64,000 nt of DNA from assembly GCF_000169175.1 (NCBI RefSeq), contig NZ_AAWS01000007.1, positions 1 to 64,000 on the forward strand, given 5' to 3'. Positions 10,135 through 51,856 of the stretch are shown one piece after another. The DNA comes from Microscilla marina ATCC 23134. Its GTDB lineage: Bacteria > Bacteroidota > Bacteroidia > Cytophagales > Microscillaceae. A model generated the notes under the pieces. It was not told the DNA's origin. It was given only the letters and a program-made list of their open reading frames with translations, and searched no databases. The translations under genes and the position numbers were made by a program. The number at the start of each line of letters is the position of its first letter. Within the stretch, counting starts at the first letter, position 1.

Positions 10135-10137
10135 GTT

Positions 10138-12218: not shown

Positions 12219-12221
12219 ATA

Positions 12222-12440: not shown

Positions 12441-12446
12441 AGAGAT

Positions 12447-31585: not shown

Positions 31586-31611
31586 AGACAAGCGTTTGGT
31601 TATTTCTCCGG

Positions 31612-32970: not shown

Positions 32971-33077
32971 GAATATAAAATTTAGTTTTTTTCAAAATTC
33001 ATTCAACAAAACCAAAAAACGTGATTTTGCCCATTGTGTTGCATGGCACATGGAAAAATGAAGTTATGCAAAAATAA

Positions 33078-33113
33078 AAAAAGAGACTTCAATCTTACTT
33101 GAAATCTCTTTTT
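33078..33113 (-). terminator. Terminator downstream of ald
   Basis: AAAAAGAGA-C-TTCAA (33078-33092) pairs with TTGAA-A-TCTCTTTTT (33099-33113), a 14-bp stem with one mismatch. On the minus strand it follows the ald stop and ends in T. Confidence 0.8.
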
Positions 33114-33210
33114 AATCTTTAGCAAATAATTCTTAGCCACCAGTTGTAAGTAATACCTCAATAGATATGAAGTTAACAACTGATAGTTTCGGGCTTGTTG
33201 CTTTTGAAAG

Positions 33211-35251: not shown

Positions 35252-35273
35252 GTGTATCCTAAAATTTGACCAA

Positions 35274-35319
35274 AAACAATCAAGGGACAATGGTCTAACT
35301 CATTGTCCCTTGATTGTTT
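35274..35319. terminator. Bidirectional terminator, 19-bp stem
   Basis: Bases 35274-35292 and 35301-35319 are perfect inverse complements with an 8-base loop. It sits between the convergent genes ending at 35251 and 35355. Confidence 0.9.
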
Positions 35320-35354
35320 GATAGTATAGGTAATGAAATGCTTTGTGCAATGGC

Positions 35355-36158: not shown

Positions 36159-36475
36159 TGTGCTGTTAAACATTAAACAAGATTTAATAAGCATAGTATT
36201 ATTACGCTTGGTGTGATTCCTCAATATTAAATTACTCTACCACAAAAATAGCGATTATATGACAGAATTGGTCATAATTTCCATACTATCATATTTTCGA
36301 TGACAAGATTGACAAATTTAATGCTAAAAATAAAAAACCACATTATTTGGTAAATCTATTTTTATAAAAAATAAATACTAATAAACTGTTTTGTTTTAGA
36401 AATTTTTTGACCACAAATTGTAATAAAAAACGTTTTGCCAAATATTATATGGGTATTTCTGAAAAGGTAAAGCTA
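36159..36475. other. Intergenic region, AT-rich
   Basis: No gene is visible between the DUF1573 start and the promoter of the E1 fusion gene. The stretch 36241-36420 is very AT-rich. Confidence 0.4.
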
Positions 36476-36506
36476 TTTGAAAGATGCTTTTTTTTGAGTA
36501 GTTTTG
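36476..36506 (+). promoter_or_regulatory. Promoter of the ketoacid dehydrogenase gene
   Basis: TTTG at 36476-36479, a 19-base spacer and TAGTTTTG at 36499-36506 fit the Bacteroidota consensus exactly. The expected transcript start is near 36513, leaving a leader of about 60 bases. Confidence 0.65.
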
Positions 36507-36572
36507 TAAGACACCTCTCAGGATTGCAAAATACAGTCAAAAAGTTTAACTATTCTAATAATTGCATTTCGT

Positions 36573-38981
36573 ATGATTACAAAAGATATATCTGTAGAAC
36601 AGGAACTTACTAAAGACACTATTCTAAAAGACTACCAGTTAGCATGTGAAAGCCGTGAAGCCAGTTTGATCGGGCGCAAGGAGGTTTTTATGGGAAAAGC
36701 TAAATTTGGGATTTTTGGTGATGGCAAAGAAGTAGCCCAATTGGCTATGGCTCAGGCATTTCGTCCAGGTGATTTTCGTTCAGGGTATTATCGCGATCAA
36801 ACATTCATGTTTGCAATTGGGGAGTTAACCATGGAGCAGTATTTTGCCCAGTTATATGCACATACCTCAGTAGAAGCTGAGCCTGTGTCGGCTGGCCGAA
36901 TGATGAACGGGCACTTTGGAACCCGTTTGTTGGATGATGAAGGAAAGTGGAAAAACCAAAGCAATGCTTACAATGCCTCAGCTGACATATCGCCTACTGC
37001 TGGGCAAATGCCTCGTATATTAGGCATAGCGTATGCTTCTAAACTTTATCGGCAAAACCCTGACTTGCAGGTTTTTACTGATTTTTCTGATCAAGGCAAC
37101 GAAATATCCTTTGGCACTATAGGCAATGCCTCTACCTCTGAAGGACTGTTTTATGAAACTATCAACGCTGCCGGAGTATTACAAGTACCTATGCTCATGT
37201 CGGTATGGGACGATGAGTATGGCATATCGGTACCCAAAGAGTACCACACCACCAAAGGCAGCATTTCTAAAGTATTGGCGGGCTTTAAACGTACCAAAAA
37301 AGAACAAGGCTATGAGATTTTCACGGTCAAGGGCTGGGATTATGAAGCTTTGTTTGAAACCTATCAAAAAGCGGCTGAAATATGCCGTACTGAGCATGTA
37401 CCTGTATTGGTGCACGTTATAGAAGTAACCCAACCTCAAGGACATTCTACTTCCGGCTCGCACGAGCGCTATAAGCCAAAAGACCGTTTAGAGTGGGAAA
37501 AAGAATTTGATTGTATTAAAAAAATGCGTGAGTGGATTGTCACTCAAGGATACGCCTCAAACGATGAGGTAGATACCATAGAAAAAACGGCAAAAACCAA
37601 CGCTAAAAACGCCCGTAAAACTGCTTGGAATGCCTTTGTAGACTCTATGAAAGGCGATCATAACGAAGCTTTGCAACTACTGACTCAGTTGGCTCAAAAT
37701 AGCCCAAACTATGCCGATAAGTTGAGCGAGATTCAAGATGATTTGCAAAAAACTACCAACCCACTGAAACGAGACGCTATTACGTCAGTAAAAAAAGCCT
37801 TGAGATTGATTCGTACTGAGCAAAACCCTGCAAAGCATTCACTCATTGCCTGGTTAGATAAGGTAATAGCAAAGGGGCGTGAAGACTACAGTTCACACCT
37901 GTATAGTCAGTCAGACGAATCGGCATTGAATATACCCGAAATACCCGCTCAGTATAACGAAGACAGCAAGTTGGTAGATGGAAGAGAAGTGTTACAAGCT
38001 TGTTTTGATGCAGCACTTACCCGCGACCCTAGGGTGTTTGCTTTTGGCGAAGATGTAGGGAAGATCGGGGACGTAAACCAAGCATTTGCCGGACTACAAG
38101 AAAAGCATGGTGAGCTGAGGGTTACTGATACAGGTATTCGTGAAGCAACCATTATAGGGCAGGGCATTGGAGCTGCTATGCGTGGCTTGCGCCCAATTGC
38201 TGAAATACAATACTTAGATTATATATACTATGCAGTACAAATCTTAGCCGACGATTTGTCTTGCTTGCAATACCGCACCAAGGGTGGGCAAAAATCTCCT
38301 TTGATTATTCGTACCCGTGGACATCGTTTAGAGGGGATTTGGCATACAGGGTCGCCTATGGGTGCTTTGTTGCATAGTTTGCGAGGTATTTATATACTTA
38401 CTCCGCGCGACATGACCCAAGCCGCTGGTTTTTATAATACTTTGCTCAAGTCAGATGATCCGGCTTTAGTAGTGGAGTGCTTGAATGGTTATCGTCTAAA
38501 AGAGAAATTACCAGAGAATATAGGTGACTTTACCGTACCATTGGGAGTACCCGAAACCCTGAAAGAGGGCACAGACATTACCCTGGTTACCTATGGCTCT
38601 ATGTGTCGTATTGTAATAGATGCCGCTCGTCAGCTCGAAGAAGTAGGCGTTAGTTGTGAAGTAATAGATGTGCAATCACTATTACCGTTTGATTTGCAAC
38701 ACCATATTGTAGAATCTATCAAAAAAACCAATCGTGCCTTGTTTATTGATGAAGACGTACCAGGAGGCGCCTCAGCGTTTATGATGCAAAAAGTGATAGA
38801 AGAGCAAAACGCTTATCGTTGGTTAGATTCGGCTCCGGCTACGTTGGCTGCACAAGAACACCGGGCTGCTTATGGTAGCGATGGAGACTTTTTCTCGAAG
38901 CCAAGCATAGAAGACGTGTTTGACAAAGTATATGATATGATGAGTGAGGCTGATCCGGCACAATATCCAGCAATTTATTAA
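36573..38981 (+). CDS. Fused E1 alpha-beta 2-oxoacid dehydrogenase
   Basis: 802 residues. The E1 alpha part (about 15-430) has the thiamine diphosphate region IGNASTSEGLFYETINAAG and the GHSTSGSHERY loop. The E1 beta part (about 465-800) starts DGREVLQACFDAALTRDPRV and has FGEDVGKIGDVNQ, TDTGIREATIIGQGIGAAM and PRDMTQAAGFYNTLL. It should decarboxylate branched-chain 2-oxoacids or pyruvate as the first step of the complex; which substrate cannot be told. The usual GDG/GEG thiamine motif reads GNA here. E2 and E3 genes are not adjacent. Confidence 0.9.
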   Translation: MITKDISVEQELTKDTILKDYQLACESREASLIGRKEVFMGKAKFGIFGDGKEVAQLAMAQAFRPGDFRSGYYRDQTFMFAIGELTMEQYFAQLYAHTSVEAEPVSAGRMMNGHFGTRLLDDEGKWKNQSNAYNASADISPTAGQMPRILGIAYASKLYRQNPDLQVFTDFSDQGNEISFGTIGNASTSEGLFYETINAAGVLQVPMLMSVWDDEYGISVPKEYHTTKGSISKVLAGFKRTKKEQGYEIFTVKGWDYEALFETYQKAAEICRTEHVPVLVHVIEVTQPQGHSTSGSHERYKPKDRLEWEKEFDCIKKMREWIVTQGYASNDEVDTIEKTAKTNAKNARKTAWNAFVDSMKGDHNEALQLLTQLAQNSPNYADKLSEIQDDLQKTTNPLKRDAITSVKKALRLIRTEQNPAKHSLIAWLDKVIAKGREDYSSHLYSQSDESALNIPEIPAQYNEDSKLVDGREVLQACFDAALTRDPRVFAFGEDVGKIGDVNQAFAGLQEKHGELRVTDTGIREATIIGQGIGAAMRGLRPIAEIQYLDYIYYAVQILADDLSCLQYRTKGGQKSPLIIRTRGHRLEGIWHTGSPMGALLHSLRGIYILTPRDMTQAAGFYNTLLKSDDPALVVECLNGYRLKEKLPENIGDFTVPLGVPETLKEGTDITLVTYGSMCRIVIDAARQLEEVGVSCEVIDVQSLLPFDLQHHIVESIKKTNRALFIDEDVPGGASAFMMQKVIEEQNAYRWLDSAPATLAAQEHRAAYGSDGDFFSKPSIEDVFDKVYDMMSEADPAQYPAIY

Positions 38982-38997
38982 CTCCTGCATAAAGTAT

Positions 38998-39036
38998 AAA
39001 AAAAGCCCATTTATTGAACAGTAAACGGGCTTTTTT
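38998..39036. terminator. Bidirectional terminator after the E1 fusion
   Basis: AAAAAAAGCCC (38998-39008) pairs with GGGCTTTTTT (39027-39036), with an inner TTTA/TAAA extension. It serves both convergent genes. Confidence 0.85.
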
Positions 39037-39044
39037 AATAATCA

Positions 39045-39521
39045 CTACTTTACCACGTCTGCGTAAAACGCTTTGACTGCTCTGCGCTCTGCTTTGCTGG
39101 CTATGCGTGTTACAATAGGGGTAAATAGTGCTTTCCCTTCGTGTTTTACTGTCACTGACCCACCAAAAATGTTAGAGACTACCTTGAGTTTCTTGAGTTG
39201 GGCTATTTCAATTCGCACTACTGCCTTCCATTGTTGTTGAAAATTTTGAAAAAATTCGTCCAAACTTTCCAAAGTAGTGCTTTCTTCGGCTAATAGCCCA
39301 GCAATTACTTCGCGGGGGGTATAGTCGCCAAAATTAAACGATTCTACCTTGTCTACACCTGCCAGTGCATTTGTAAAAAACTCCTTCACAGATGACTCGG
39401 ATACTGTTTTTTGATCAGGTACTACATACAAATGGGTGTTGGTACCTACAAAGCAAACCTTTTCGGTGATTTGGTCTGCTACTGGTACAAATACATAGTC
39501 CACATTTTCTTGTAAAGCCAT
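39045..39521 (-). CDS. Hypothetical cytoplasmic protein
   Basis: 158 residues, no signal peptide or membrane segment. MALQENVDYVFVPVADQITEK begins an alpha/beta protein with FNFGDYTPREVIAGLLAEES in the middle and a basic end ERRAVKAFYADVVK. I do not recognise the family. It is convergent with the E1 fusion gene. Confidence 0.7.
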   Translation of the reverse strand: MALQENVDYVFVPVADQITEKVCFVGTNTHLYVVPDQKTVSESSVKEFFTNALAGVDKVESFNFGDYTPREVIAGLLAEESTTLESLDEFFQNFQQQWKAVVRIEIAQLKKLKVVSNIFGGSVTVKHEGKALFTPIVTRIASKAERRAVKAFYADVVK

Positions 39522-39717
39522 TTTGATTGTTAAAGTTTGTTGTTGTTATAAAACAATAGAATATCAGGTAAAACAAAAGAACCTTGTAAATAAGTTTTCA
39601 AGGAAAGAAATTTGCTTTGTTAATATTCTAAAATATTAATTTTTTAGCAAAGGCTTTAGTTAACACTCAAAAAAGCTTATTTTTCTCAAAACCTGACAAA
39701 TCAATCTTATCAATACA

Positions 39718-40290
39718 ATGAGTTCAAAGAGTATAAGTTACGTGCTAATCATTCGTCGCATTCTTTTTCTTACTACGGGAGCGTTGTTCGCGATTCTATT
39801 TTTTCGAGCAGCTTTCGGTGTAGGTTCTTACAGTTCACTCCTCAGTGAGACGTTTCGCTTAAACCTGCTTACCGAAAAAGGTCCTTTGGTTAGCAAACCT
39901 TTCAGGGTATACAAAAGTATGAAGTATTATGAAATGAACTTTGATAAAAACACTTCTGAGTTTACAGGTGACTCTTTGTTGATTAATGTCAAAGTATTGA
40001 ATAATAAAGATGAATTAATCAATGAGTTTGCTGAAAATTTTATCGTAACAAATAAGTCTGGTTACCGTGATAAATGGCACAAGCGCCTTTTTAAGGTAAA
40101 TAAAGATCAAGAACTAAGGGTGGCAATGAAGGTAATCAAGAATAACTTGAAAAAATCAAAGCGTAACTATATCAAGTTTAAGGTAAGGTATGCTAGTAAA
40201 AAAGTGCCCACCAGTTATTATTATAAGGTGTTTATCTATTCGTTTTTTGCCATGATTGTGATGCTTTTTATTCCTAAAAAATGGTTTTAG
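39718..40290 (+). CDS. Hypothetical protein with two membrane helices
   Basis: 190 residues. A membrane helix near 12-32 (IIRRILFLTTGALFAILFF) and another near 165-186 (YYKVFIYSFFAMIVMLFIP) flank a soluble beta-rich domain, probably periplasmic (about 35-160). Function not recognised. It is followed after 36 bases by the Ser/Gly-rich protein gene and may be co-transcribed. Confidence 0.72.
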   Translation: MSSKSISYVLIIRRILFLTTGALFAILFFRAAFGVGSYSSLLSETFRLNLLTEKGPLVSKPFRVYKSMKYYEMNFDKNTSEFTGDSLLINVKVLNNKDELINEFAENFIVTNKSGYRDKWHKRLFKVNKDQELRVAMKVIKNNLKKSKRNYIKFKVRYASKKVPTSYYYKVFIYSFFAMIVMLFIPKKWF

Positions 40291-40326
40291 TACATCAAGG
40301 CTACCTACAATATTTAACTTACAACT

Positions 40327-40806
40327 ATGAAAAACTATACTAAACTACTTGTTGGAGGTATATCATTTACTATTGTATTTGTTACCTACCTTGCTGTGGC
40401 TCAAGGGTGGGGAGTCAAACCCGTTAGAAACCAAGCCATTGTCAACAAATACCAAGGAAAAAGTGGGTATTACGGACGAAAAAATAAAGTGTTATGGGAC
40501 TCTGTATTGGCAGTTAGAAAAAGGGTGCGAGACTCTTTGAGGCAACGAAGAAGAGATAGTATTAGCAAAGTAGGAATACGTTTTAACAAAACCAGGGATA
40601 GTGTCACCAGAATTTATGGCAAGAAGTTTTTGGAAGTATATGCAGGAGGCAGATATTTGTATGCTTATGGCAAGCGCCCTCGTAACAACAGTAGTAGCGA
40701 CTACAGTAGTAGTTATAGTTCTTCTTCCAGTTCGGGGAGTGTAGGTAGTTTTCGGGGAGGCTCAAGCCGTAGTTTTCGGGGGGGGAGCCGCCGGGGAGGA
40801 AAGTAA
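40327..40806 (+). CDS. Exported protein with a Ser/Gly/Arg-rich tail
   Basis: 159 residues. The N-terminal hydrophobic segment (about 5-26, ending AVAQG) looks like a signal peptide. The middle is very basic (RKRVRDSLRQRRRDSISK). The last 38 residues are low complexity: SSSDYSSSYSSSSSSGS, then FRGGSSRSFRGGSRRGGK. A similar Ser/Gly tail occurs on the TPM protein at 52791. Function unknown. Confidence 0.7.
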   Translation: MKNYTKLLVGGISFTIVFVTYLAVAQGWGVKPVRNQAIVNKYQGKSGYYGRKNKVLWDSVLAVRKRVRDSLRQRRRDSISKVGIRFNKTRDSVTRIYGKKFLEVYAGGRYLYAYGKRPRNNSSSDYSSSYSSSSSSGSVGSFRGGSSRSFRGGSRRGGK

Positions 40807-41471
40807 AAAGGTATAAATACCCCACATAACTTGCCACTGATTACTGATGGAGTCCCTTTCATTCTAGCCTCTGGTACTTCAACAAATTGGGCAACTTATA
40901 AATGACTTATCTTAAATATTCTTGTTTTTATTACATATCGAAGCGGTGATCCGAAAAATAGTTTTTATATTGAACAGCAAATCGTGAAAATACGTATTGT
41001 ATTTTATCTGCTATTTTTTATACTTCTTATTGTCTTTTTTCTGAAAATCCTGTGTTCAACTTTACATCTTTAGGGGTTCAGGTAATCTTAATCGTTATAA
41101 TATACTTAAACAAAAATGGTTTTGAGGATGGATTTTGACTAACTGTCTGAATACCAACATTAATCAATCCTGTAAATCCTAAAATCACTTTAATCCTAGT
41201 ATATAATGCTATGTAAATAGGAATCGAGAATGGTATACCTAGTGCAAACACCTTGTATATTGCAACAAAAACATAACCCTAATCAAAACTTAATAATTTC
41301 ATTCTTTCTTTATACATAACTTTATTCCGGCTTATGCTTGCAAGAGTAAATAATATATTGTGTTCAATGGCTATGTTTATGCAGGTCAACAACCAATATG
41401 AAAGACCACTATTTGCTGAAGTATTTTGCCATCACTTTATATAGAAGAAAGATTTTTTTAACAACAAAAAA
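40807..41471. other. 665-base region without a gene
   Basis: No convincing open frame on either strand. Bases 41165-41197 repeat the motif AATCCT several times. The start of the metabolic cluster's transcript is expected here, which would imply a promoter or a long leader, but I see no site with both promoter boxes. Confidence 0.45.
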
Positions 41472-43523
41472 ATGAGTCAAAACATTAAAGCGAACTTCGA
41501 CGAAATTTATTCCTTGTATTCTCCACAGACTTATGTTCGTTGTCTTGTGCAGGATTTAAACTATAGGTTGCCTTTCCACGCAATGAAGGTTTTAAAACAT
41601 TATTGTCAGGTTTTATTGCCAAAGACACCACTGCGGGTATCTGTAATTGGTAGTTGCCATGGGGTAGATGCCGTAGCGTTAAAATATAATCTGACTGCTC
41701 AGGACGTGATGACCCGCTGGGGAAACGAAGATACTGTAGAGCGACCTTTTCCTGCCTCCGACCAAAAAGTGAAAATCAGCCTGATAGACGCGCAGTCAGA
41801 ACCTTTGCGTTTTGCCAAGGACATCAATTTAGCTGATCACTCGTTTGTGGCAAACCTAAATGCCCCTTACTCTGAGGGGTTAAAGTATCACCTGGCTAAT
41901 GAGACTGATGTAATTACAGCTTTTGGCGTAACATCTTATTTGGGAGTAGAAGGAACAGAAAGAATTATTCAGGAAGCATTAATTAACGGAAACACCCAAT
42001 TATTTTGTTTCTCGGTAGTGAAATATTTAAACCCCACCGACTTTGTAGAACTTTGCCGAAAATGTAACCTGGAAGTACAACAAATAAACGAATTGCCCCA
42101 ACGAGCTTACAAAAATCAGACTGAGCAAGAGAGAGTTACTCGAACATTGAAGGAAAAAGGAATGTATACCAGAGATGACGAGGAGAATTTAATGACGCTC
42201 ATGTTTTTGGCATATAAGAAAGATTTATTAAGTACTAAAAAAGCGGGTATTTCCTCAACTTTGATTGTTGCCAATAAAGAAAATGAATTGTTGGGGCATT
42301 CTTGCAACAAAAATCCTTTACGTTATTCTTCTACCCAATGGGCTCATCCCTGGCATATTGTGCTTTCGCAACAACACTCTGAAAACCGCGCCATTTATCA
42401 AAAACTAACCGAGCTTCACACTCAAGGAGCTATTGCTATTGGTGATACAATCACAGCCATCAGTTCAGCTACTCCAACATCGACAGATGATGTAGTACAT
42501 CTTGCCAAACTTTTTGCAGGTGAATATCAGGTTACTAAACAAAATTTGCCAGAGGGTCAAATCAAACAAACTCTTACCCGCATAGAACCAATCATTAATG
42601 CCCACATTGTAAAGCAGGTACCAGCCTCTTCAGAAGCGTTGGAAGTAGGATTGAAGCAGCATGGTCATTTATTAGTGCGCACAGGACAGGCTATAGATGA
42701 TGCCAAAGTTTTAAAGTTATTAACTGGCAAAGGTAAAGCGATGGATTACCGCTATGGAAACGTAGCACGCCAAAAAATAAAGGGGACCTCTGCCCTACAG
42801 GTAACTCCTTGGTCAAAAGAGCTTTGTATTTTGCCTCATAGTGAGCTGACTTATCACACTAAGTTTCCTAAATACATATCTTTTGTATGCAAAGTACCCG
42901 CTGAACATGGTGGAGAAACTGCAATTTATGACTGTGCTAAAGCTTTTGATGTACTCTCGCCAGATTTCCAGGCAAAGGCTACCCAACACAATGTGATATT
43001 TCGCAAGCGTTATGTTCAATCTTCTGGTCATGACCGCTACCCAAGCTGGCAACAAGTAATGGGGGAAGGTAGTACTGCCAACGATTTTATGACTCATTTT
43101 AATGCTTTGGGTTACAATTGTGTGCAGCTGCAGGAAGAAGACAATAAGGTAATTGAAACCCAATTGACTCGACCATTAGTGTATCAATATCAGGGTAAAA
43201 AATGCCTGCACTCCAGTATTGTAGGCATATCACCTTATTGGTACCAACAGGTTTGGCCAGGAAAAACTCCCCCACTTACTGTCACCTGGGACAACAATGA
43301 ACCGTTTTCTATAGCCGAATTGCGCCATATGGAAGAAGCCTTACTGCTGGCAAGGATTTCGTACAACAACTGGCAAAAACATGATGTACTCTTTTTGGAT
43401 AATTTGCGGGTAGCACATGGGCGACTTCCCTTTACTGGCAAGAGGGTTACAGGAGCTTTAATGGCTCAACCAGCTCAATTTGTAAAGACGGATGAGCACT
43501 GGAACGTTGAACTTGTCAAATAA
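41472..43523 (+). CDS. Methyltransferase-TauD/SyrP-like dioxygenase fusion
   Basis: 683 residues. Residues about 1-255 resemble a class I SAM methyltransferase (YVRCLVQDLNYRLPFHAMK, SAM loop VSVIGSCHGVDAVAL, VITAFGVTSYLG). Residues about 365-683 form an Fe(II)/2-oxoglutarate oxygenase of the TauD/SyrP type: the metal ligands are His456 and Glu458 in LPHSELTYHTKFPKY, and distal His649 in DNLRVAHGRLPFTGKR; the family's PAEHGGETAIYD is present. Such oxygenases hydroxylate amino acids in natural-product pathways. It opens a six-gene same-strand cluster, 24 bases before the next gene. Confidence 0.82.
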   Translation: MSQNIKANFDEIYSLYSPQTYVRCLVQDLNYRLPFHAMKVLKHYCQVLLPKTPLRVSVIGSCHGVDAVALKYNLTAQDVMTRWGNEDTVERPFPASDQKVKISLIDAQSEPLRFAKDINLADHSFVANLNAPYSEGLKYHLANETDVITAFGVTSYLGVEGTERIIQEALINGNTQLFCFSVVKYLNPTDFVELCRKCNLEVQQINELPQRAYKNQTEQERVTRTLKEKGMYTRDDEENLMTLMFLAYKKDLLSTKKAGISSTLIVANKENELLGHSCNKNPLRYSSTQWAHPWHIVLSQQHSENRAIYQKLTELHTQGAIAIGDTITAISSATPTSTDDVVHLAKLFAGEYQVTKQNLPEGQIKQTLTRIEPIINAHIVKQVPASSEALEVGLKQHGHLLVRTGQAIDDAKVLKLLTGKGKAMDYRYGNVARQKIKGTSALQVTPWSKELCILPHSELTYHTKFPKYISFVCKVPAEHGGETAIYDCAKAFDVLSPDFQAKATQHNVIFRKRYVQSSGHDRYPSWQQVMGEGSTANDFMTHFNALGYNCVQLQEEDNKVIETQLTRPLVYQYQGKKCLHSSIVGISPYWYQQVWPGKTPPLTVTWDNNEPFSIAELRHMEEALLLARISYNNWQKHDVLFLDNLRVAHGRLPFTGKRVTGALMAQPAQFVKTDEHWNVELVK

Positions 43524-43547
43524 ATACCACAAAAGAGGAAAAAAATC

Positions 43548-44516
43548 ATGTCTGAAATCCCCATTGTTTTAAAAATCGATGGTGCCACTTATTTCGAAAT
43601 GCCCCAACTCGATGGTTACTTGGCTAAACACCAAACCCGTTTGGTGGAGGCATCTTTGAATGAAGCCATCTCAGCAATCAACGAACATTCGCCAGGAGCC
43701 ATTGTCAGTGGAGCAGCACCTATTGGCAGAGAAATTATGGATGCCGGATTACAAAAAGGATTGCGTGGCATTGTAAAAGCAGGTACTGGTTTAGATAATA
43801 TCGATTGTGAGTACGCCCGCTGCCAACAAATTCTGGTGGAGAACATACCTGACTATGTACATGAAACTGTAGCAGAATATGCTATTAACCTGATGCTGTC
43901 ACTGGCTCGCAAATCCTGGCCAGTACAACAAACTATGCGTCAAAAAGGTTGGTTTGATATTACCCCAGCTTCATTGGGCACCGAACTAAACGGCAAAACG
44001 ATTGGTTTGGTTGGTTTTGGACGAATTGCGCGAAGTGTAGCCCGTATTGCTCATTTTGGTTTTCAAATGTCTGTCATTGCTTATGACCCTTATGTAAGTG
44101 CTGAAGAAATGGAGTTGTGCGCGGTACAAAAAGCCGAACAATTGGAAGATATATTGCCTCATTGCGATGTGGTGTCTCTTCATACTAGTCTCAATAACGA
44201 CACCCGTAACCTGATAGGGGAAAAACAACTGGCTATGATGAAATCTTCTGCCCTGTTAATCAATGTAGCACGGGGGGGGATTATAGATGAAACGGCTTTG
44301 TTGATTGCCTTATCTACTCAAAAAATCGGAGGAGTTGCTTTAGATGTTTATTCACAGGAACCACTGGATGTCAATACCCACCCAATAATTTCTCAGATGA
44401 TTTCGCTTAACAATGTGCTTTTATCACCCCACATTGCCTGGTATACCGCCGAAGCTGGTCAGCGGTTACAAGCCAGTGTAGCTCAAAAATGTCAACAAAT
44501 TATTTTTCAAGAATAA
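43548..44516 (+). CDS. D-2-hydroxyacid dehydrogenase family protein
   Basis: 322 residues of the phosphoglycerate/hydroxyacid dehydrogenase family. The NAD loop GLVGFGRI is at 153-160. The catalytic trio is Arg242 in INVARGGIIDE, Glu271 in YSQEPL and His295 in SPHIAWYTAEA. KAGTGLDNID is the usual N-terminal signature. There is no ACT domain, unlike many serine-pathway enzymes. In this cluster it would interconvert a 2-oxoacid and a 2-hydroxyacid. Confidence 0.88.
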   Translation: MSEIPIVLKIDGATYFEMPQLDGYLAKHQTRLVEASLNEAISAINEHSPGAIVSGAAPIGREIMDAGLQKGLRGIVKAGTGLDNIDCEYARCQQILVENIPDYVHETVAEYAINLMLSLARKSWPVQQTMRQKGWFDITPASLGTELNGKTIGLVGFGRIARSVARIAHFGFQMSVIAYDPYVSAEEMELCAVQKAEQLEDILPHCDVVSLHTSLNNDTRNLIGEKQLAMMKSSALLINVARGGIIDETALLIALSTQKIGGVALDVYSQEPLDVNTHPIISQMISLNNVLLSPHIAWYTAEAGQRLQASVAQKCQQIIFQE

Positions 44517-44519
44517 ACT

Positions 44520-45698
44520 ATGACTTATCAAAACTCTGAATATGTACAAATGCCTGTAACAAAAGGCATTTATGACCTTAATGTAGGACAACCTTCACCT
44601 CAGATGCTGCCATTGGATTTGCTCTATTCGACCGACAGAAATCATATTACTGATCCTACTTTTTTACAATATGCCAACCAACAGGGCTACCTTACTTTCC
44701 GTAAAGAGTTGGCAAAGTTTTTATCATCAGAAACAGGTGACCAAATTGCTGCCAACGAGCTGCTTGTGACTCCCGGAAATTCAGGCGCAATTAATCTGAT
44801 TGGAACAAGAATAGCCGCCAGTAGTCCTACTCGTCCGCTTGCCCTAGTGGAGACTCCTACTTATCAGTGGGCAGTAAATGTACTAGAAGGCTGCGGGTTC
44901 GATATTATGCCCATACCAGTTGATAAAGAGGGTATTGACGTTGTTGAAGTTGAGCGACTTATAATAGAAGAGCAGGTCAAGCCTGCCCTTGTATTTGTCA
45001 TTCCTTCTCACCAAAACCCCACAAGTGTTAATTTAAGTGCCCCACGACGACAGAAGCTGATTCAACTGGCAGTGACCCACGATTTTTATATTCTGGCAGA
45101 TGAAGCTTATCAACTCCTTAGTTTCCCTGAAAACAAAGTCCACTCGGCACTGGCAAGCGAAGACTATACAGAGAAAGGTGTAGTTTTTACCATTGGAACA
45201 TTCAGTAAAATATTTGCTCCTGCCATCCGTTTGGGCTGGCTTCAGGCAAAACCAGACTTGATTGAATGGATGGTAAACCACCCAGTACTTGTAAGTGGTG
45301 GTGGAGTAAACCAAGTGATGGCTGGCTGGATAGAACCTATACTTAGTAATGGTTCCATGCAAAAATGGTTGTCAGATTTACGTAAGGAGCTTTTCCAGCG
45401 ATACGAATGCCTTTACAAAGCAGTACAGCAAAAATTGCCTCTACTCGAAATCGTAACTACCCCACAAGGTGGCTATTTTATATGGTGTAAACTGCCTAAC
45501 CAGATGGATAGTTCGGCACTGGCTGCTTTAGCTCTGGAGAAATACAAAGTTAGCTTTCGACCTGGCACCAAATGCAATACTTCGCCCGATTATTTGCGGC
45601 TTTGTTTTGCCTATCATACTACAGACGAAATCGAAAAAGCGGTTGACTTATTGGCACTGGCCTACAATGAGTTTGCTGATAACCTAATTCTAAAATAA
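44520..45698 (+). CDS. PLP-dependent aminotransferase (class I/II)
   Basis: 392 residues, starting 3 bases after the previous stop. The PLP Lys is Lys230 in GTFSKIFAPAIRLGW. PSHQNPTSVNLS, ADEAYQLL and the C-terminal LRLCFAY with its substrate Arg are as in 2-aminoadipate/MocR-type aminotransferases; there is no DNA-binding domain. It probably converts an oxoacid of the pathway to the amino acid or the reverse. Confidence 0.9.
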   Translation: MTYQNSEYVQMPVTKGIYDLNVGQPSPQMLPLDLLYSTDRNHITDPTFLQYANQQGYLTFRKELAKFLSSETGDQIAANELLVTPGNSGAINLIGTRIAASSPTRPLALVETPTYQWAVNVLEGCGFDIMPIPVDKEGIDVVEVERLIIEEQVKPALVFVIPSHQNPTSVNLSAPRRQKLIQLAVTHDFYILADEAYQLLSFPENKVHSALASEDYTEKGVVFTIGTFSKIFAPAIRLGWLQAKPDLIEWMVNHPVLVSGGGVNQVMAGWIEPILSNGSMQKWLSDLRKELFQRYECLYKAVQQKLPLLEIVTTPQGGYFIWCKLPNQMDSSALAALALEKYKVSFRPGTKCNTSPDYLRLCFAYHTTDEIEKAVDLLALAYNEFADNLILK

Positions 45699-45744
45699 CC
45701 TATATTTACAACTATGCTTAACTATCGAACGCACAAAGAAAATA

Positions 45745-46995
45745 ATGAAACGCGAAAACATCGACTGGTTGATTGCAACCACCCCCGAAAATGTTTTTTA
45801 TTCTATTGGCTTTCGCTCACTGGGTCAATGGTTGATGCGTTCTTCTAAAATCGAGGTTTTGGTATTAATTCCTGCCCAGGATCCTACCCGGTCGGTGTTG
45901 ATATCGCCCGCGCAGGAATTAGACGTAGCAGCTGCCATTCCTCCACGGGTTTCAAAGGTTTGCCCGGTTGGTCACATTACCATCGAACCCGGAGACAGGT
46001 CTTTGTGGGAAGAACCAGACCACCGTTTGGCACAATGGACACTTGATACCCCCAGTTATACCAGTGTTTATCATGCTGTAGAAACCTTGAATCTGATTCA
46101 ACCCAATCAACGGGTTGCCCTGGATGACAACCTTACTTATGAAGGATTAAGGGAGGTTTTATCACCACAGACTGAACTGTTTATTGCTCCAGAAGTAATA
46201 CAGGACATCCGGGTAATTAAAACGGAAGAGGAACTCGAATTAATGCGTAAAGGGGTTCAAATTGCAGAAGAGGGTTTACGCCAGTCGATGGCAGCTCTTT
46301 GCACAGGTATCAGCGAGCTAGAACTGGGCCATATATACAATACCAGTGTGGTAAAAGCTGGGGCAGTGCCTTATATGACCCTGGTGGGCATTGGGTCAAA
46401 TGGAGCTTCGCCGAATCACCCTTCTACCAACCGTCAATTACGCCCCAACGAGCTTATCCGCTGGGATGTTGGTTGTGAAGTAGATGGCTACCGAGTCGAT
46501 CTGGGTTTTATAGCTTTTTATGGTGAACCTAGCCCCAAAGTAGTAAAATATGCCGACGCAATTGCCCGTGCTCAAACTGCCTGTTTTAATGCCATGCAAG
46601 CTGGGAACAAGTTGTCTGAAGTATATCAGATAGGTTTTGATATGATGAAAGCTGTTATTCCTGCTTATAAACGTAAGCACTTGGGGCATGGCGTGGGAGT
46701 TGAACTACGTGAGCCTCCTATTATTGCTCCTAAAGAAGCCCAAAACGAACGGGGGGTTACCTTTGATCGCTCTAAACAAGCAACTGCCGATTTGCTTGAG
46801 CTTGGTATGGTCATCGCTCTTGAGGTGCTTTATTATGAGCTGGGGTTGGGCGGTTTTCAAATCGAAGACACCATCATTGTGACAGAACAAGGACCTGTCC
46901 GACTAAATAAATTACCTTACGAATTAACTGTTGTTCCTGTAAAGGACAAAGATCATAACAAACAGGAAGTTATTAATGAAGCCCTTACTAAATAA
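45745..46995 (+). CDS. M24 family hydrolase, first paralogue, possible disrupted start
   Basis: 416 residues from ATG 45745. It has a creatinase-like N-terminal domain and a pita-bread domain. The metal ligands are complete: Asp241, Asp252, His315, Glu360, Glu374. Relatives include Xaa-Pro peptidases, creatinase and ectoine hydrolase. The 10 in-frame codons before the ATG read LTIERTKKI and align with the start of the paralogue next door, but have no start codon; ATG 45714 would supply one if a single base were absent near 45720. The true N-terminus may therefore be longer, or a frameshift occurred. Confidence 0.85.
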   Translation: MKRENIDWLIATTPENVFYSIGFRSLGQWLMRSSKIEVLVLIPAQDPTRSVLISPAQELDVAAAIPPRVSKVCPVGHITIEPGDRSLWEEPDHRLAQWTLDTPSYTSVYHAVETLNLIQPNQRVALDDNLTYEGLREVLSPQTELFIAPEVIQDIRVIKTEEELELMRKGVQIAEEGLRQSMAALCTGISELELGHIYNTSVVKAGAVPYMTLVGIGSNGASPNHPSTNRQLRPNELIRWDVGCEVDGYRVDLGFIAFYGEPSPKVVKYADAIARAQTACFNAMQAGNKLSEVYQIGFDMMKAVIPAYKRKHLGHGVGVELREPPIIAPKEAQNERGVTFDRSKQATADLLELGMVIALEVLYYELGLGGFQIEDTIIVTEQGPVRLNKLPYELTVVPVKDKDHNKQEVINEALTK

Positions 46996-48154
46996 AGCAC
47001 GTGTTCTTCATTTAATGCAGACTAATGGAGTAGATGTGATGATGGCAACTATTCCCGAAAACCTACTGTATGCCAGTGGTTTTCGTAGTTTAAGCCAATG
47101 GCTTATACGTGGGCAAAAAACCTTGGCGGTAGCTGTTATTAAGTTCAATGGCGAAGTTACCCTTATTGCTCCATCAGGTGAACTCGACCGGGCTGCTTGT
47201 GACCCTCCGGTAGTCGATCATATCATTGCCTTTGATACAGTGACAGTAGAACCAGGCGATGAAGCTATTTGGCTTGCCGAAGATTGGCGTTATGCCAACA
47301 TGGTACTGGTAAGTAATCGCCCCAAAGATTTATGGGAAGCATTTGCCCTTGCAGGTATACCAGATGAAGCGTGTGTAGCTATAGATGATCCGGATTTAGC
47401 CCAAGCTTATCGCCAACGTTATCAGACCCAAGTAACTGATGCCCGCCCTTTGTGGCTACAAAGCCGTTTGATAAAAACACCCGAAGAAGTAAATCGCTTG
47501 CGCCGGGCGGTCGAAATAACAGAAATCGCTTTTTTGCATACTATAAATGCAGTACAGGTGGGTATTTCGGAAAAAGAGCTGGCAATTATTTTTAACATGG
47601 CTGTAGTTAAAGCAGGAGGCGACCCTTATTTAGCTGTAATAGGTGCAGGCACGTATGGAGCTTATCCTAATCATATTCCTGGTGATTACTGCATCAAAGC
47701 GGGTGACTTGATTCGCTGGGACATGGGGTGCTCATATCAGGGGTATGTAGCCGATATTGCTCGAACCACCTGTGTAGGCAAACCTAATAAACTGCAAACA
47801 GAACGTTGGGAAGCAGTTTTGGCAGGGCAAATGGCGGCTCTCAATGCCATTTATCCTGGGCAATTGGCTGCCGAAGTTTATAGTATTGGCATGCAAGCTG
47901 CCCGTGAGAATGGCTTGCCTGACATTAAACGTAAACATATTGGACATGGTATTGGAATTGATATGTACGAACCTCCTTCCATTAGCCCAAACGAAACACT
48001 CAGTTTGGAGGCAGGGATGGTCTTTGAGCTGGAAGTGTTATTTTATGAACTTGGCTTTGGCAGTGTGCAAGTCGAAGACACCATTCATGTGACACCAGAT
48101 GGTTACGAACGTTTTACCACATTACCACATTCATTAATTATTATAGACAATTAA
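46976..48154 (+). CDS. M24 family hydrolase, second paralogue
   Basis: 392 residues. Same fold as the preceding gene, with ligands Asp249, Asp260, His324, Glu353 and Glu367. NLLYASGFRSLSQWLIRG here matches NVFYSIGFRSLGQWLMRS there, so the two arose by tandem duplication and diverged. The start overlaps the previous gene by 20 bases. The pair may form a heterodimer or act on two different amide bonds. Family membership is sure, substrate is not. Confidence 0.88.
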   Translation: MKPLLNKARVLHLMQTNGVDVMMATIPENLLYASGFRSLSQWLIRGQKTLAVAVIKFNGEVTLIAPSGELDRAACDPPVVDHIIAFDTVTVEPGDEAIWLAEDWRYANMVLVSNRPKDLWEAFALAGIPDEACVAIDDPDLAQAYRQRYQTQVTDARPLWLQSRLIKTPEEVNRLRRAVEITEIAFLHTINAVQVGISEKELAIIFNMAVVKAGGDPYLAVIGAGTYGAYPNHIPGDYCIKAGDLIRWDMGCSYQGYVADIARTTCVGKPNKLQTERWEAVLAGQMAALNAIYPGQLAAEVYSIGMQAARENGLPDIKRKHIGHGIGIDMYEPPSISPNETLSLEAGMVFELEVLFYELGFGSVQVEDTIHVTPDGYERFTTLPHSLIIIDN

Positions 48155-48159
48155 AACTC

Positions 48160-48921
48160 ATGAGCAGAGACCAAGGACGGATTGGGGTGATTGTCCCATC
48201 TTCGAATACTAATCTTGAACCTGACTGTGCGTTGTTGGTACCAGCAGGAATCACGCTTCACTTTACACGGGTGGGTGGTTATGATGTAGATGATGTGCCA
48301 GATGGAGATGAAATGCGGCGTTTTGCTTTGGCAGGGCTCGACGATGCCCTGACTTTGTTAATAGCTGCTGATATCAATGTAATAGCGTATGGATGTACAT
48401 CTGCCACTCTAGCAAGCGGTTTTGAATTTGATCAACAGTTTCAAAAACAGATGGCAAACAAAACAGGAGTACCTGCAGTTACAGCCGCTGGGGCTATTAT
48501 AGAGGCACTCAAAACACTGCACATATCCCGTATTGCCTTCACTTCACCTTATGTGGCTGAGTTAAACCAAGACGCTATCCGATTTATTTCTACCTGTGGT
48601 TTTGAGGTAGTCAATCACTTCAGTGTAGGTGAGAGTTATTCGAGTCGTGAGATGCGAGAGGTTACTCCTGATACAATTTACAAGTTTGGTTTGCAGGCAG
48701 ATCACCCCGAAGCTGAAGCGCTGGTAATTTCTTGTACCGATTTTCGGGCATTAGAAGCTTTAACTGCACTGGAACGAGACTTGGGTAAACCCGTAATTAC
48801 TAGTAACCAAGCAATGATGTATGCTATTTTAACCAGAATGGACATTGACCCCTCAAATATTTTAGCAGGAGGACAGCTTTTTACTCAGCATGCGACCCGT
48901 TTACAACAAGCTCTAAGGTAG
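48160..48921 (+). CDS. Maleate isomerase / Asp-Glu racemase family protein
   Basis: 253 residues. RIGVIVPSSNTNLEPD at the start and two catalytic Cys, Cys79 in AYGCTSAT and Cys192 in ISCTDFRA, place it in the Asp/Glu racemase superfamily near maleate cis-trans isomerase, arylmalonate decarboxylase and EutA of ectoine use. It is the last gene of the cluster, 5 bases after the M24 gene, and is followed by a terminator. Confidence 0.87.
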   Translation: MSRDQGRIGVIVPSSNTNLEPDCALLVPAGITLHFTRVGGYDVDDVPDGDEMRRFALAGLDDALTLLIAADINVIAYGCTSATLASGFEFDQQFQKQMANKTGVPAVTAAGAIIEALKTLHISRIAFTSPYVAELNQDAIRFISTCGFEVVNHFSVGESYSSREMREVTPDTIYKFGLQADHPEAEALVISCTDFRALEALTALERDLGKPVITSNQAMMYAILTRMDIDPSNILAGGQLFTQHATRLQQALR

Positions 48922-48925
48922 AAAT

Positions 48926-48973
48926 AGGCATAAGCAACAAATCATAGGTTTGGTTGCTTATGCCTTGTTTTTA
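48926..48973. terminator. Bidirectional terminator of the cluster
   Basis: AGGCATAAGCAAC (48926-48938) pairs perfectly with GTTGCTTATGCCT (48953-48965), followed by TGTTTTTA. It separates the cluster from the convergent DUF5686-type gene. Confidence 0.85.
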
Positions 48974-48976
48974 TTT

Positions 48977-51430
48977 TTAAAACCCAAAACCAAACCTGAA
49001 ACCACTGCTTACCTGATTGCCCTCTTGCAAACCTACGATAAAGTCAAAGCGCATAATTTTAAGAATATGTTCCAGTCCTATGCCTAGCTCAAGGTAATTA
49101 AGCGAGGTAGGAGTCCAAAGGTAGTTGGCGCTGATCACCAGTTGAGACTTTAGTTTATTGATCAGCGGAAAGCCATTCATTACAAAGCCGTTGAAATGGT
49201 GTTCATAGTGTCCTTCTAGGTAACGGTCTTGAGTACTGTAACGGTAGTATTCCAATAACTGAAAAGCGTTGCTGCTACCTTTCAAAAGCCCTGTTTGGTT
49301 ACCCGAAAAATGACGGAAATCCATAAAATACATTTTGTTAGTATTTAAAAATACTCCAGCACTCACCCGATACTTACTGGCTCCTATTACCCCCATACTT
49401 ATCTCATCTGATATAGACGCGTGTAGTAAATCATAGTCCACGTCGCTGTCTCCTATAGCAAGCCCTTTACGGTAACCCAACAATAAAGTGGGGTAGTCTG
49501 AACCCACAATAAACTTACGGTGAGGGTAAGTGATGTAGCGTTGTTTGATACGCAAACGCAAAGAGGCATTGAATGTAAGTGCTTGATGGTAAGCAAAATC
49601 GGTATTGGCCAGTTCGTTGTTTACAGGGGCGTTGGGCGTAAACTCCCGGTTTTCTACATTGCGCCAACTATAGTTGGTGGTATTTTGCATAGCATTACGT
49701 TCAGCAAACTCTAAGCTCCCCTTAAAGTACAAGCCATTGATCAACTCTTGACGATACCCCACTTTAGCGTAAGCTTTTTCGTATATCTTCATAAAATTCT
49801 CCTCAACCACCAGTGTATAGTAACTATTGAGAAAGGGCGAAATAGATTGCATACGGCTCAATTGCTCTACATAACGTCCACCTTCTGCCCATACTGTACC
49901 AAAGCTTTTGGGGGCAAACCGATAAGATGTGCGTAGTTTTGCCTGAAATCGCTTGTTAGAAAAGCCATACCTAAAACTGGGATCAATGGTAAAGTATGTT
50001 CTGTTTTCGTAGCGTTTTTGATAATTAAGCGACAAGTCCGTTACCAAACCCTCTACAGTGTTGTATTGAAAAGTGCTAATAAGCGGTTGAAAAGAAAAAC
50101 GTTCGCGGCGGTAAGAGTTACGATAAGTATAGCCACCATATAGTATACCAGTAATTCCCAGTTTGTTACGTTTGGCGTCTACCGAATCTTTATAAGGCTT
50201 GCTATCCTTGATCACTTGTAGGCTATCTTTTTCGCGGTAATCTTTTACTTCAGTAGTAGTTAACGGAATGGGTCTGATCTTGCTCCAGTAGGTACTATCT
50301 TTCTTATTGGCATCATTTGTCACTGTCATTACTTCATTGTTGAAAAACCGCCGTTGAAAAGTCGGTGTGATGTTATAGTTAGAGTACATACACAAAAAAT
50401 AGCCATGACCTTTGAACCCAAAAGCAGCAAATTCAAAATTATATTTTACTGAGAGCGGTCGCCATACCTTTCCGTTGCCCACTGGAGCATATACTTGCTT
50501 GATAGTCACCGAATCTATAAAATCTATTGTGCCCTTGCCCAACGAAAGCTCTATACTATGTATGCGCCAGGTATCATCTATAATGTAGATAAAACCACTA
50601 AAAGCCGGAGCAAGTTTGCGGCGGGGCATCAAGCGTATTTTATTGACAGTGAGCCCATTTTCTTGAAAAGAACCCTCATAGCGGTAACGATAATAAAGCA
50701 TGGCATTAAAAGCTACTGGCGACACCATTCCTCTTTCACTAAAACCGGTGTTGTCAATGATATTGTTATAAAGTTCCGTTTCCATCTCTGATGCCTGGTT
50801 GAAGCTAAACCCACGACTATTGCCGCTTACCTTCGATGAAATCATCTTCTCTTTATACTCTCCGTTTTTATAGCTCAGTTCCGATACCGACTCCGAAAAG
50901 TATACAATGCCAGTGTCCACATCTACCTTCATTCCCAGTACTCGTTTAGGGGCTTTACCCAAGCGCTGCAAGCCTTTGACATAGGCATCACAGGTAAATT
51001 TTTCTATTTCTCTTAAGTGTTTTTTACGGTTTCGTATGGCTTTGCGCATAATAGGGTAAGCGGGGTCTTCGCCATTCGAGGTAATGGTTACTTCATTTAG
51101 AGTAAGCACCTCAGGTTCAAGACTTACATTCAAGGTTTGTGACTGGTTGATGGTCACTTTTTTAGTACTGGCTTTGTAGCCAATAAACTGAAAAGCAATT
51201 TCGTGGCTTCCAGCTTTAAGCGGTAAAAAATAATCTCCATTGTCATTGGTTGTAGTACCATTAGAGGTACCCTTTACATATACAGTCGCAAAAGGTAACC
51301 CTTGTCCTTTTTTATCAGTTACCCGTCCTTTCAGAGTAAACTTTTGTTGTGCAGTAAGTCTGCCAGGTAATACCCAAAGTATCACAAGCAATAATATTCC
51401 GAGAGTTTTGAGTAACAGTTGGTTTTTCAT
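48977..51430 (-). CDS. DUF5686/carboxypeptidase-like regulatory domain outer-membrane protein
   Basis: 817 residues. After a signal peptide (about 1-27) comes a carboxypeptidase-regulatory-like beta domain (about 30-112: FTLKGRVTDKKGQGLPFATV, GSHEIAFQFIGYKA). The remainder is a long beta-rich region with repeated aromatic strands and a C-terminal Phe (FRFGFGF), as in outer-membrane barrels. No TonB box or plug is seen. Role unknown; such proteins are common in Bacteroidota. Confidence 0.85.
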   Translation of the reverse strand: MKNQLLLKTLGILLLVILWVLPGRLTAQQKFTLKGRVTDKKGQGLPFATVYVKGTSNGTTTNDNGDYFLPLKAGSHEIAFQFIGYKASTKKVTINQSQTLNVSLEPEVLTLNEVTITSNGEDPAYPIMRKAIRNRKKHLREIEKFTCDAYVKGLQRLGKAPKRVLGMKVDVDTGIVYFSESVSELSYKNGEYKEKMISSKVSGNSRGFSFNQASEMETELYNNIIDNTGFSERGMVSPVAFNAMLYYRYRYEGSFQENGLTVNKIRLMPRRKLAPAFSGFIYIIDDTWRIHSIELSLGKGTIDFIDSVTIKQVYAPVGNGKVWRPLSVKYNFEFAAFGFKGHGYFLCMYSNYNITPTFQRRFFNNEVMTVTNDANKKDSTYWSKIRPIPLTTTEVKDYREKDSLQVIKDSKPYKDSVDAKRNKLGITGILYGGYTYRNSYRRERFSFQPLISTFQYNTVEGLVTDLSLNYQKRYENRTYFTIDPSFRYGFSNKRFQAKLRTSYRFAPKSFGTVWAEGGRYVEQLSRMQSISPFLNSYYTLVVEENFMKIYEKAYAKVGYRQELINGLYFKGSLEFAERNAMQNTTNYSWRNVENREFTPNAPVNNELANTDFAYHQALTFNASLRLRIKQRYITYPHRKFIVGSDYPTLLLGYRKGLAIGDSDVDYDLLHASISDEISMGVIGASKYRVSAGVFLNTNKMYFMDFRHFSGNQTGLLKGSSNAFQLLEYYRYSTQDRYLEGHYEHHFNGFVMNGFPLINKLKSQLVISANYLWTPTSLNYLELGIGLEHILKIMRFDFIVGLQEGNQVSSGFRFGFGF

Positions 51431-51856
51431 GAAAATAATAAATAAGTTATTTTTTGAGTCATGGATATTTTATCCCGTGTGTTTAATAGGTATACAAGTC
51501 TGATGCAGTCTCTCCCCTAATGGTTGCTTTCCATTTTGAAAAATAATAAAAACTTACCTAAAAGGTGAAGTGTAATAGGGGTACCCTTATTTTCTAAATT
51601 ACAAAACTCTGCTATTATCTATCAAGGTATGGCGGTTTTTCATACTAAAAACTGATTTGCTTCGACCAAATGCCCGTGTACTTCTTTTGGGATAACAAAT
51701 AGTCACATTACAAAAAATGCTGGATGTAGTTCAAATAAATATGATTAAAAAGTGCTTCTACCCAATTTGCAAGGATTTTATCTGCCATCAATGTTAATTT
51801 TTATGGGGCGAACGCTACTAATAAAATATAGAGCAATTAATTTTGACACGTTGAGC
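51431..51856. other. Divergent regulatory region
   Basis: 426 bases between the divergent DUF5686-type and AraC genes. No gene is visible. A palindrome GGGTACCC near 51590 could be an operator; this is weak. Confidence 0.35.

Follow-up and report, generated by a model that had tools for sequence, protein, structure and literature searches.

An apparently transferable six-gene metabolic island of Microscilla marina and its possible role in small-molecule biosynthesis

Several described systems share single features with the locus analyzed here. Ectoine catabolic operons, as described in PMC5924519, include uptake and regulator genes alongside their enzymes. For the decarboxylation of DMSHB, a step called poorly known in PMC11306096, the only known enzyme named there is the fusion protein DsyGD, of which the DsyG part corresponds to PF08241 and the DsyD part to PF04115. 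Arylmalonate decarboxylases are distinguished by Gly74, which replaces the second cysteine of the related racemases, according to PMC4996985.

We analyzed a window of 64,000 nucleotides from Microscilla marina ATCC 23134 (contig NZ_AAWS01000007.1), in which six genes, g1 to g6, occupy an island with the following features:

40808..48974, island with g1-g6: 8167 bp here versus 57 bp (L080, 14262-14318) in the same-genus genome G808
40808..41471, + strand, leader: 664 bp with no ORF of at least 90 aa
41472..43523, + strand, g1: 683-aa fusion of a methyltransferase-like N-half and a TauD-type oxygenase C-half (residues ~1-252, class I methyltransferase-like fold; ~252-385, no Pfam match; 386-658, TauD-type Fe(II)/2-oxoglutarate oxygenase)
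43548..44516, + strand, g2: D-isomer-specific 2-hydroxyacid dehydrogenase (Pfam 2-Hacid_dh_C, E 3e-54)
44520..45698, + strand, g3: class I/II PLP aminotransferase (Pfam Aminotran_1_2, E 1.3e-39)
45745..46995, + strand, g4: M24 metallohydrolase (Pfam Peptidase_M24, E 4.5e-36)
46976..48154, + strand, g5: M24 metallohydrolase of the recurring core (Peptidase_M24, E 2.9e-45), its start overlapping g4 by 20 bases
48160..48921, + strand, g6: Asp/Glu racemase superfamily, Amdase/EutA/maleate isomerase branch, with cysteines C79 and C192
48926..48965, inverted repeat: 16 nt, 94% complementary, 8-nt loop, followed by a T-rich stretch; between g6 and a convergent DUF5686 gene

The left flank of the island (30001-40807) aligns with L080 3396-14261 of G808 at 93.1% and the right flank (48975-51455) with L080 14319-16799 at 92.7%; the presence in the window genome and the absence in G808 are exact, between two old neighbouring genes. 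A repeat search found no terminal repeats at the island ends, Rfam gave no match on 40500-49200, and no promoter for g1-g6 was identified in the leader. At a threshold of 90 aa, two antisense ORFs (109-116 aa) are all that the island contains besides the leader and g1-g6. The ORFs and their Pfam assignments bear out the inventory of six metabolic genes in the initial annotation and their head-to-tail layout: the products of 683, 322, 392, 416, 392 and 253 aa are encoded from 41472 to 48921 on the + strand, with spacings from g1 to g6 of 24, 3 and 46 bases, an overlap of 20 and a gap of 5. The genes had also been said to end at one terminator. The inverted repeat with its T-rich stretch agrees with this, but a simple terminator scan did not pick it up, and we therefore regard it as a probable terminator.

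Five of the six genes recur in another phylum, so that the lack of co-occurrence elsewhere, which the initial annotation had named as a refutation, was not borne out. A contig (L052) of a Candidatus Parabeggiatoa MAG, a giant sulfur bacterium, carries g1, g2, g3, g5 and g6 in the same order with open frames (identities 57.1%, 63.5%, 71.2%, 70.7% and 68.8%, respectively); between the window and L052 genes, dN is 0.20-0.32 and dS is saturated. The recurrence of this order exceeds what chance would give. The gene order is thus conserved in a single comparison, since one other genome alone has it. After g6 in L052 comes a heavy-metal P-type ATPase gene, of which a 42.9%-identical one occurs in L062. 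The full-length g1 fusion was found in no other genome searched besides L052; the scan of genome contigs relied on two short peptide patterns alone, so that its absence from the rest of that collection counts for little. From the gap in G808, the five-gene match in L052 and the lack of the full fusion in the other genomes searched, the six-gene unit is real and rare and appears transferable, with a core of five genes that leaves out g4. In the three Roseobacter plasmids inspected, relatives of g6 (41-47%) come after genes for hydantoinase/oxoprolinase A and B and for an aminotransferase-like protein. We rejected these clusters as the same system, as their hydrolases differ and their aminotransferase is unrelated; that of L046 has no detectable relation to g3. 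No g6 was found in six genomes from the order to which G395 belongs, in a search without a positive control.

The two halves of g1 differ in how well they can be assigned. Residues 386-658 match Pfam TauD (E 5.7e-21, 76 bits versus a cut-off of 27), and the HxD/E...H iron triad, H456, E458 and H649, aligns with the solved relatives 9yut and 1y0z and is retained as HxE...H in the L052 partner. The N-half has no credible Pfam match up to E 5, the sole one being Transposase_22 (E 0.04), under its cut-off. Furthermore, no known methyltransferase family profile of Pfam or NCBIfam matched the N-domain, a sequence search of its profile against solved structures gave an unrelated protein as the best match (E 0.37), a profile comparison with a Methyltransf_25 protein of related genomes gave a probability of 0.2 (control against M24, 0.1), and a PHROGs search with g1 returned no match. 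The AlphaFold2 model of full-length g1, built from two sequences, has a mean pLDDT of only 34.8, and that of the N-domain, from a two-sequence alignment, a mean pLDDT of 51.5 and a pTM of 0.51. With the N-domain model, Foldseek gave methyltransferases in 49 of the best 50 of 481 matches (the exception, UvrC, at rank 50), none of the matches being at E 0.001 or better, and VIA gave class I methyltransferases with a best Z of 8.9, barely over the 7-8 usual for models that lack a clear match. Of the methyltransferase-dioxygenase fusion proposed at the outset, the oxygenase stands by its Pfam match and iron triad, while the N-half may be a class I SAM methyltransferase, a label whose only source is the fold match of a mediocre model, since the half has no credible Pfam match. 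The N-domain defines a protein family for which neither Pfam nor NCBIfam has a matching model. In other genomes it also exists as a stand-alone protein, whose gene neighbours one for a PLP enzyme of the Cys/Met type, and in L062 the stand-alone gene adjoins a heavy-metal P-type ATPase gene.

The closest solved relatives of g2 are phosphoglycerate dehydrogenases, and g2 also matches McyI (E 1.8e-39), the 2-hydroxyacid dehydrogenase of microcystin synthesis. The nearest solved relatives of g3 include archaeal aminotransferases, MppQ and 2-aminoadipate aminotransferase. The Arg/Glu/His motifs of g2 and the PLP-lysine motif of g3 are conserved in both species. MppQ is the closest named aminotransferase family for g3 (169.8 bits) and its L052 partner (192.1 bits); an assignment of g3 as MppQ, the enduracididine aminotransferase, was rejected against the NCBIfam equivalog cut-off of 540.

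The M24 metallohydrolases g4 and g5 are 39% identical and carry the same metal-ligand motifs (D241, D252, H315, E360 and E374 in g4, all present in an alignment with the solved prolidase 5cdl; D249, D260, H324, E353 and E367 in g5), the positions being those of the five-ligand set of M24. Both hydrolases are in the cluster as annotated, but g4 lies outside the recurring unit and is missing from L052, and its plasmid relatives inspected (L050 and L051) have no such cluster around them. In g6, Pfam recognises Amdase (E 1.7e-28) and Asp_Glu_race (E 5.8e-8), and most of its length aligns with the maleate isomerase 4fq7 (E 3.5e-17). Both g6 and its L052 partner have cysteine at both active-site positions. 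As Gly74 marks the arylmalonate decarboxylases in PMC4996985, these residues indicate that g6 is racemase/isomerase-like and not a decarboxylase; C79 stands at the Gly74 position, C192 is the second cysteine, and the decarboxylase model gave 91 bits versus a cut-off of 225.

We consider it close to an even chance, if slightly below, that the island is a transferable operon for the biosynthesis of a small metabolite derived from an amino acid; the product would probably be a small amino or hydroxy acid that has been methylated and oxidised. The substrate, step order and direction are those that we infer. By family, g3 would interconvert an amino acid and its 2-oxo acid, and g2 the 2-oxo acid and the D-2-hydroxy acid. 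The fused g1 would methylate with SAM and then use Fe(II), 2-oxoglutarate and O2 for an oxidation, either a hydroxylation or an oxidative decarboxylation. The two cysteines of g6 may invert or isomerise a carbon adjacent to a carboxylate, and the metal-dependent g5, together with its additional paralogue g4, may break a C-N or similar bond so that the product is released or recycled. The earlier suggestion that the cluster makes or degrades a hydroxylated, methylated amino acid stays possible, and we lean to making, because the cluster would consume SAM as well as, to judge from its enzyme families, 2-oxoglutarate and O2, and because the island has no uptake gene or regulator. On the other side, biosynthetic clusters often carry a transporter, self-protection or carrier gene, and none is present in this cluster. 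A literature search found no paper describing this gene combination, and the literature, Pfam and NCBIfam searches gave no described pathway with this set, in line with the original remark that the mix matches none. If right, the biosynthetic reading implies an undescribed small-molecule operon without NRPS or PKS genes, which has passed between a member of the Bacteroidota and a giant sulfur bacterium, and whose presence or absence within one genus would make the product traceable by comparing close strains.

A narrower form of this biosynthetic reading, which we think rather unlikely, is that a beta-methylated amino or hydroxy acid arises via C-methylation of a 2-oxo acid: g3 would make the 2-oxo acid, the g1 N-domain would methylate the carbon beside the keto group, the C-domain would hydroxylate, and g3 or g2 would return the amino or D-hydroxy acid. 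The coupling of an aminotransferase with a putative class I methyltransferase fold and the McyI match of g2 are consistent with it. The alpha-keto acid C-methyltransferase MrsA is among the VIA rows (Z 7.9, tied with many), but Z values within 1 are ties and the row is thus no sign of function; g3 resembles the beta-methylarginine aminotransferase model weakly, at 66.3 bits far under the cut-off of 350.

Distinctly improbable, in our judgment, is a catabolic operon that, like those for ectoine use, opens and degrades an amidine, imide or cyclic amino acid. The initial annotation had seen a likeness to ectoine breakdown in M24 plus an EutA-like protein, and g6 scores best in NCBIfam against EutA, at 113.6 bits, but far under the equivalog cut-off of 318; likewise, the ectoine hydrolase model EutD/DoeA gave 31.6 (g4) and 53 bits (g5) versus 613. 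Within g1-g6, EutB, EutC, EutE, the uptake genes and an EnuR gene are absent, and we discarded the likeness and these assignments. The hydantoinase/oxoprolinase genes ahead of the g6 relatives on the Roseobacter plasmids would suit breakdown, but the L046 aminotransferase speaks against it, and a SAM-using step would be unusual in a degradative route.

There is a slim chance that the genes encode a DMSP-type pathway by the methionine transamination route, with g3 as methionine aminotransferase, g2 as MTOB reductase, the g1 N-domain as MTHB S-methyltransferase, its C-domain as oxidative DMSHB decarboxylase, and g5 and g6 in product turnover. All four needed enzyme types are found in g1-g3, the DMSP lyase DddP belongs to M24, and the Asp/Glu racemase superfamily includes the DMSP lyase Alma1. 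The last two steps would be fused in one protein as in DsyGD, which is confined to Gynuella and some Oscillatoriales according to PMC11306096, and PMC10989797 terms the last step an oxidative decarboxylation. However, g1 carries neither PF08241 nor PF04115 (N-half searched up to E 5) and its oxygenase domain is unlike DsyD, so that g1 was rejected as DsyGD; g4 and g5 were rejected as DddP (32.8 and 30.7 bits versus an NCBIfam equivalog cut-off of 600; L052 partner, 40.7), and no enzyme type here is specific to sulfur compounds. The fuller proposal, in which an oxygen-dependent pathway yields DMSP or a similar sulfonium or betaine solute, the N-domain is a new S-methyltransferase family, the TauD domain the oxidative DMSHB decarboxylase, and g5 and g6 control turnover, has in our view little likelihood. 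If the DMSP-type reading were true, g1 would provide a second enzyme for DMSHB decarboxylation.

A metallophore of the mugineic-acid type, made by SAM-derived transfer, aminotransferase, keto reductase and 2-oxoglutarate oxygenase, the same four enzyme types as in the plant phytosiderophore route, is very improbable despite the 42.9%-identical P-type ATPase genes after g6 in L052 and beside the stand-alone N-domain gene in L062, as the island holds no P-type ATPase or metal-uptake gene and the nicotianamine synthase model PF03059, a rejected candidate for the N-domain, gave no hit at E 0.001 or better in the genome from which the window comes (control, matches in 1 of 14 genomes).

Among the known systems, the bifunctional DsyGD of Gynuella sunshinyii, as described in PMC11306096, joins an N-terminal methyltransferase, to which the methyltransferase-like half of g1 may correspond, to a C-terminal oxidising/decarboxylating domain and, like g1, has an adjoining 2-oxo acid reductase gene, but it has 494 aa in contrast to the 683 aa of g1, with its TauD domain and an N-domain that Pfam does not recognise, and the window cluster adds aminotransferase, M24 and racemase-type genes. 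MppQ is the nearest named family to g3, but the cluster is without MppP/MppR-type genes. EutABCDE/DoeABCD catabolism of ectoine and 5-hydroxyectoine likewise has operons in which an M24 hydrolase occurs together with a protein of the EutA superfamily, with an aminotransferase gene nearby, whereas the g1 fusion oxygenase and the hydroxyacid dehydrogenase g2 are not part of it. Within the maleate cis-trans isomerase/arylmalonate decarboxylase branch, g6 keeps the two active-site cysteines, with a cysteine instead of the Gly74 of the decarboxylases.

The set of six genes lying head to tail in the initial annotation was borne out: six ORFs (g1-g6), all on the plus strand, were assigned the following Pfam families.

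41472-43523, plus strand: g1, TauD in the C-terminal part
43548-44516, plus strand: g2, 2-Hacid_dh
44520-45698, plus strand: g3, Aminotran_1_2
45745-46995, plus strand: g4, Peptidase_M24
46976-48154, plus strand: g5, Peptidase_M24
48160-48921, plus strand: g6, Amdase/Asp_Glu_race

From g1 to g4, successive genes lie 24, 3 and 46 bases apart; g4 and g5 overlap by 20 bases, and 5 bases separate g5 from g6. As for the proposed terminator, g6 is indeed followed by an inverted repeat that runs into a T-rich stretch, opposite a convergent DUF5686 gene, but a simple terminator scan did not report it. An Rfam search of 40500-49200 returned no family.

We compared the window with a same-genus genome, G808 (9.3 Mb, 100% complete; the Microscilla marina source genome is 9.77 Mb in 135 contigs). 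The alignment is collinear over 30001-40807 at 93.1% and resumes over 48975-51455 at 92.7%, with 8167 bp in the window against 57 bp at the corresponding site of G808. Thus, between these two genomes, the whole cluster and its 664-bp leader are present or absent as one block, through gain here or loss in G808. The DUF5686 protein next to the cluster is 96% identical in G808, and searches of that genome with g1, and with the M24 pair (g4 and g5) at E 1e-60, gave no match. Relatives of the DUF5686 protein occur in 12 plasmid records, all from Bacteroidota genera, in keeping with a host of that phylum. The block contains g1-g6 and two antisense ORFs; no mobility ORF of at least 90 aa was seen in it, and no repeats were found at its ends. 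In the left flank, cross matches of ~370 bases with G808 (31623-31992 and 32079-32448, 69-70% identity) suggest that the gene at 31612-32970 is internally repetitive.

The genome sets searched by phylum, family, order and class overlap, and their counts are not additive. Matches to g1 were found in 8 of 395 phylum genomes including its own, the other seven covering the oxygenase part only (query residues at least 388); among 15 family genomes, full-length g1 occurs in its own genome only, with partial oxygenase matches in three others. Although 188 of the 395 phylum genomes have g4 matches at E 1e-10 or better, the best outside its own genome is 33% identical over residues 135-403, and these are therefore general M24 proteins. 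At E 1e-60 the M24 pair is confined to its own genome among 193 order genomes. None of the 32 plasmid records matching g1 covers 80% of it, and the best plasmid relatives of g4 and g6 are about 31% and 47% identical. Three Roseobacter plasmid loci (L046, L047 and L048, about 7150-12800) each carry a head-to-tail series made up of hydantoinase A and B genes, a gene resembling an aminotransferase and a relative of g6 at 41-47% identity.

Genome contigs were scanned once, using two peptide patterns taken from the M24 pair; among 41 pattern matches there was one relative, L052 (QNER01000182.1), from a MAG (genome G395) of the gammaproteobacterial genus Candidatus Parabeggiatoa. This one other genome, on which the cluster comparison rests, has g1, g2, g3, g5 and g6 in the same order (57.1, 63.5, 71.2, 70.7 and 68.8% identity); g4 has no partner in L052, its best match in that genome being the g5 partner (42% identity in one comparison, 39.7% in another). 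Recent direct transfer between the two organisms is unlikely, since third-position G+C is 0.34-0.39 in g1-g6, near that of the neighbours (0.38 and 0.41), whereas the L052 cluster has an overall G+C of 49%.

The fusion protein g1 was proposed to join a methyltransferase to a dioxygenase. The oxygenase half stands, by Pfam TauD and by an HxE...H triad in register with two solved TauD-family proteins and kept in L052. The N-domain (residues about 1-252) has no match in Pfam or NCBIfam. Its predicted structure (two sequences; mean pLDDT 51.5, pTM 0.51) drew 481 Foldseek matches within an E limit of 10, none of which reached 0.001; the best 50 of the 481, except UvrC at rank 50, are methyltransferases by name or by known function. 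VIA-align gave Z up to 8.9, at least 8 in 25 of 1000 chains, where 7-8 is usual without a clear match. A class I methyltransferase fold is thus probable but not firm. The ~130 residues between N-domain and oxygenase have no Pfam match and belong with the N-domain, because a 368-aa protein in G424 carries this stretch without the oxygenase.

In the order of G395, 5 of 42 genomes match g1: in full in G395 alone, by the N-domain only in G424, G428 and G436, and by the oxygenase only in G416. An N-domain profile matched 4 of 369 genomes in the class, including G395; in two of the others it found distantly related stand-alone proteins (L068 and L069 below; E 2.2e-7 and 5.0e-7), and in the last a short match of low significance (6.8e-4). 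Stand-alone N-domain genes are listed below.

L062 90-5261, minus strand: locus with an N-domain protein of 261 aa
L061 467-4393, minus strand: locus with an N-domain protein of 368 aa
L063 7811-8596 and 9110-12784: N-domain gene (261 aa) and preceding ORF
L068 7128-7883: distant relative, 251 aa
L069 6843-7634: distant relative, 263 aa

The L068 and L069 proteins are 70% identical to each other, have no Pfam or NCBIfam match, and align with the g1 N-domain by profile comparison (probability 95.3, E 2.2e-8). At L062 and L061 the N-domain gene lies upstream of two genes on the same strand, one for a PLP enzyme of Cys/Met metabolism and one for a class I methyltransferase that is extended considerably at its N-terminus; this family may thus serve in a second pathway. 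At L063 it lies behind a 1224-aa ORF, hydantoinase/oxoprolinase-like by eye. Heavy-metal P-type ATPase genes at L052 7677-9833 and L062 3249-5261 (42.9% mutual identity) adjoin N-domain genes at both places.

Among solved proteins, g2 is closest to phosphoglycerate dehydrogenases, with McyI also matched, and g3 to archaeal aminotransferases, MppQ and 2-aminoadipate aminotransferase. All five M24 ligand positions are conserved in g4 when it is aligned with a prolidase, and the corresponding motifs also occur in g5. In g6, Cys is kept at both active-site positions, which by the rule in PMC4996985 rules out arylmalonate decarboxylase and indicates a putative racemase or isomerase.

We tentatively read the cluster as making a small, modified amino acid or hydroxy acid, and give this slightly less than an even chance. 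The g3 and g2 enzymes would interconvert an amino acid, a 2-oxo acid and a D-hydroxy acid, the fused methyltransferase and oxygenase of g1 would add a carbon and then oxidize, and the two-Cys isomerase (g6) and a metallohydrolase would round off the pathway. Ectoine breakdown, suggested initially, is supported neither by family-model scores nor by comparison with the operons described in PMC5924519. The predicted step types resemble those of the route that leads from methionine to DMSP by transamination, and the architecture of g1 recalls the DMSP-synthesis fusion DsyGD (PMC11306096); however, the domains of g1 differ from those of DsyGD and the model of the M24 DMSP lyase DddP fails, so the cluster falls outside that system. 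The claim that the set matches no known pathway held within our literature searches, which found no paper describing this combination. All catalytic families except the g1 N-domain are known, as are small metabolic gene clusters as a kind; what seems new is the combination of genes.
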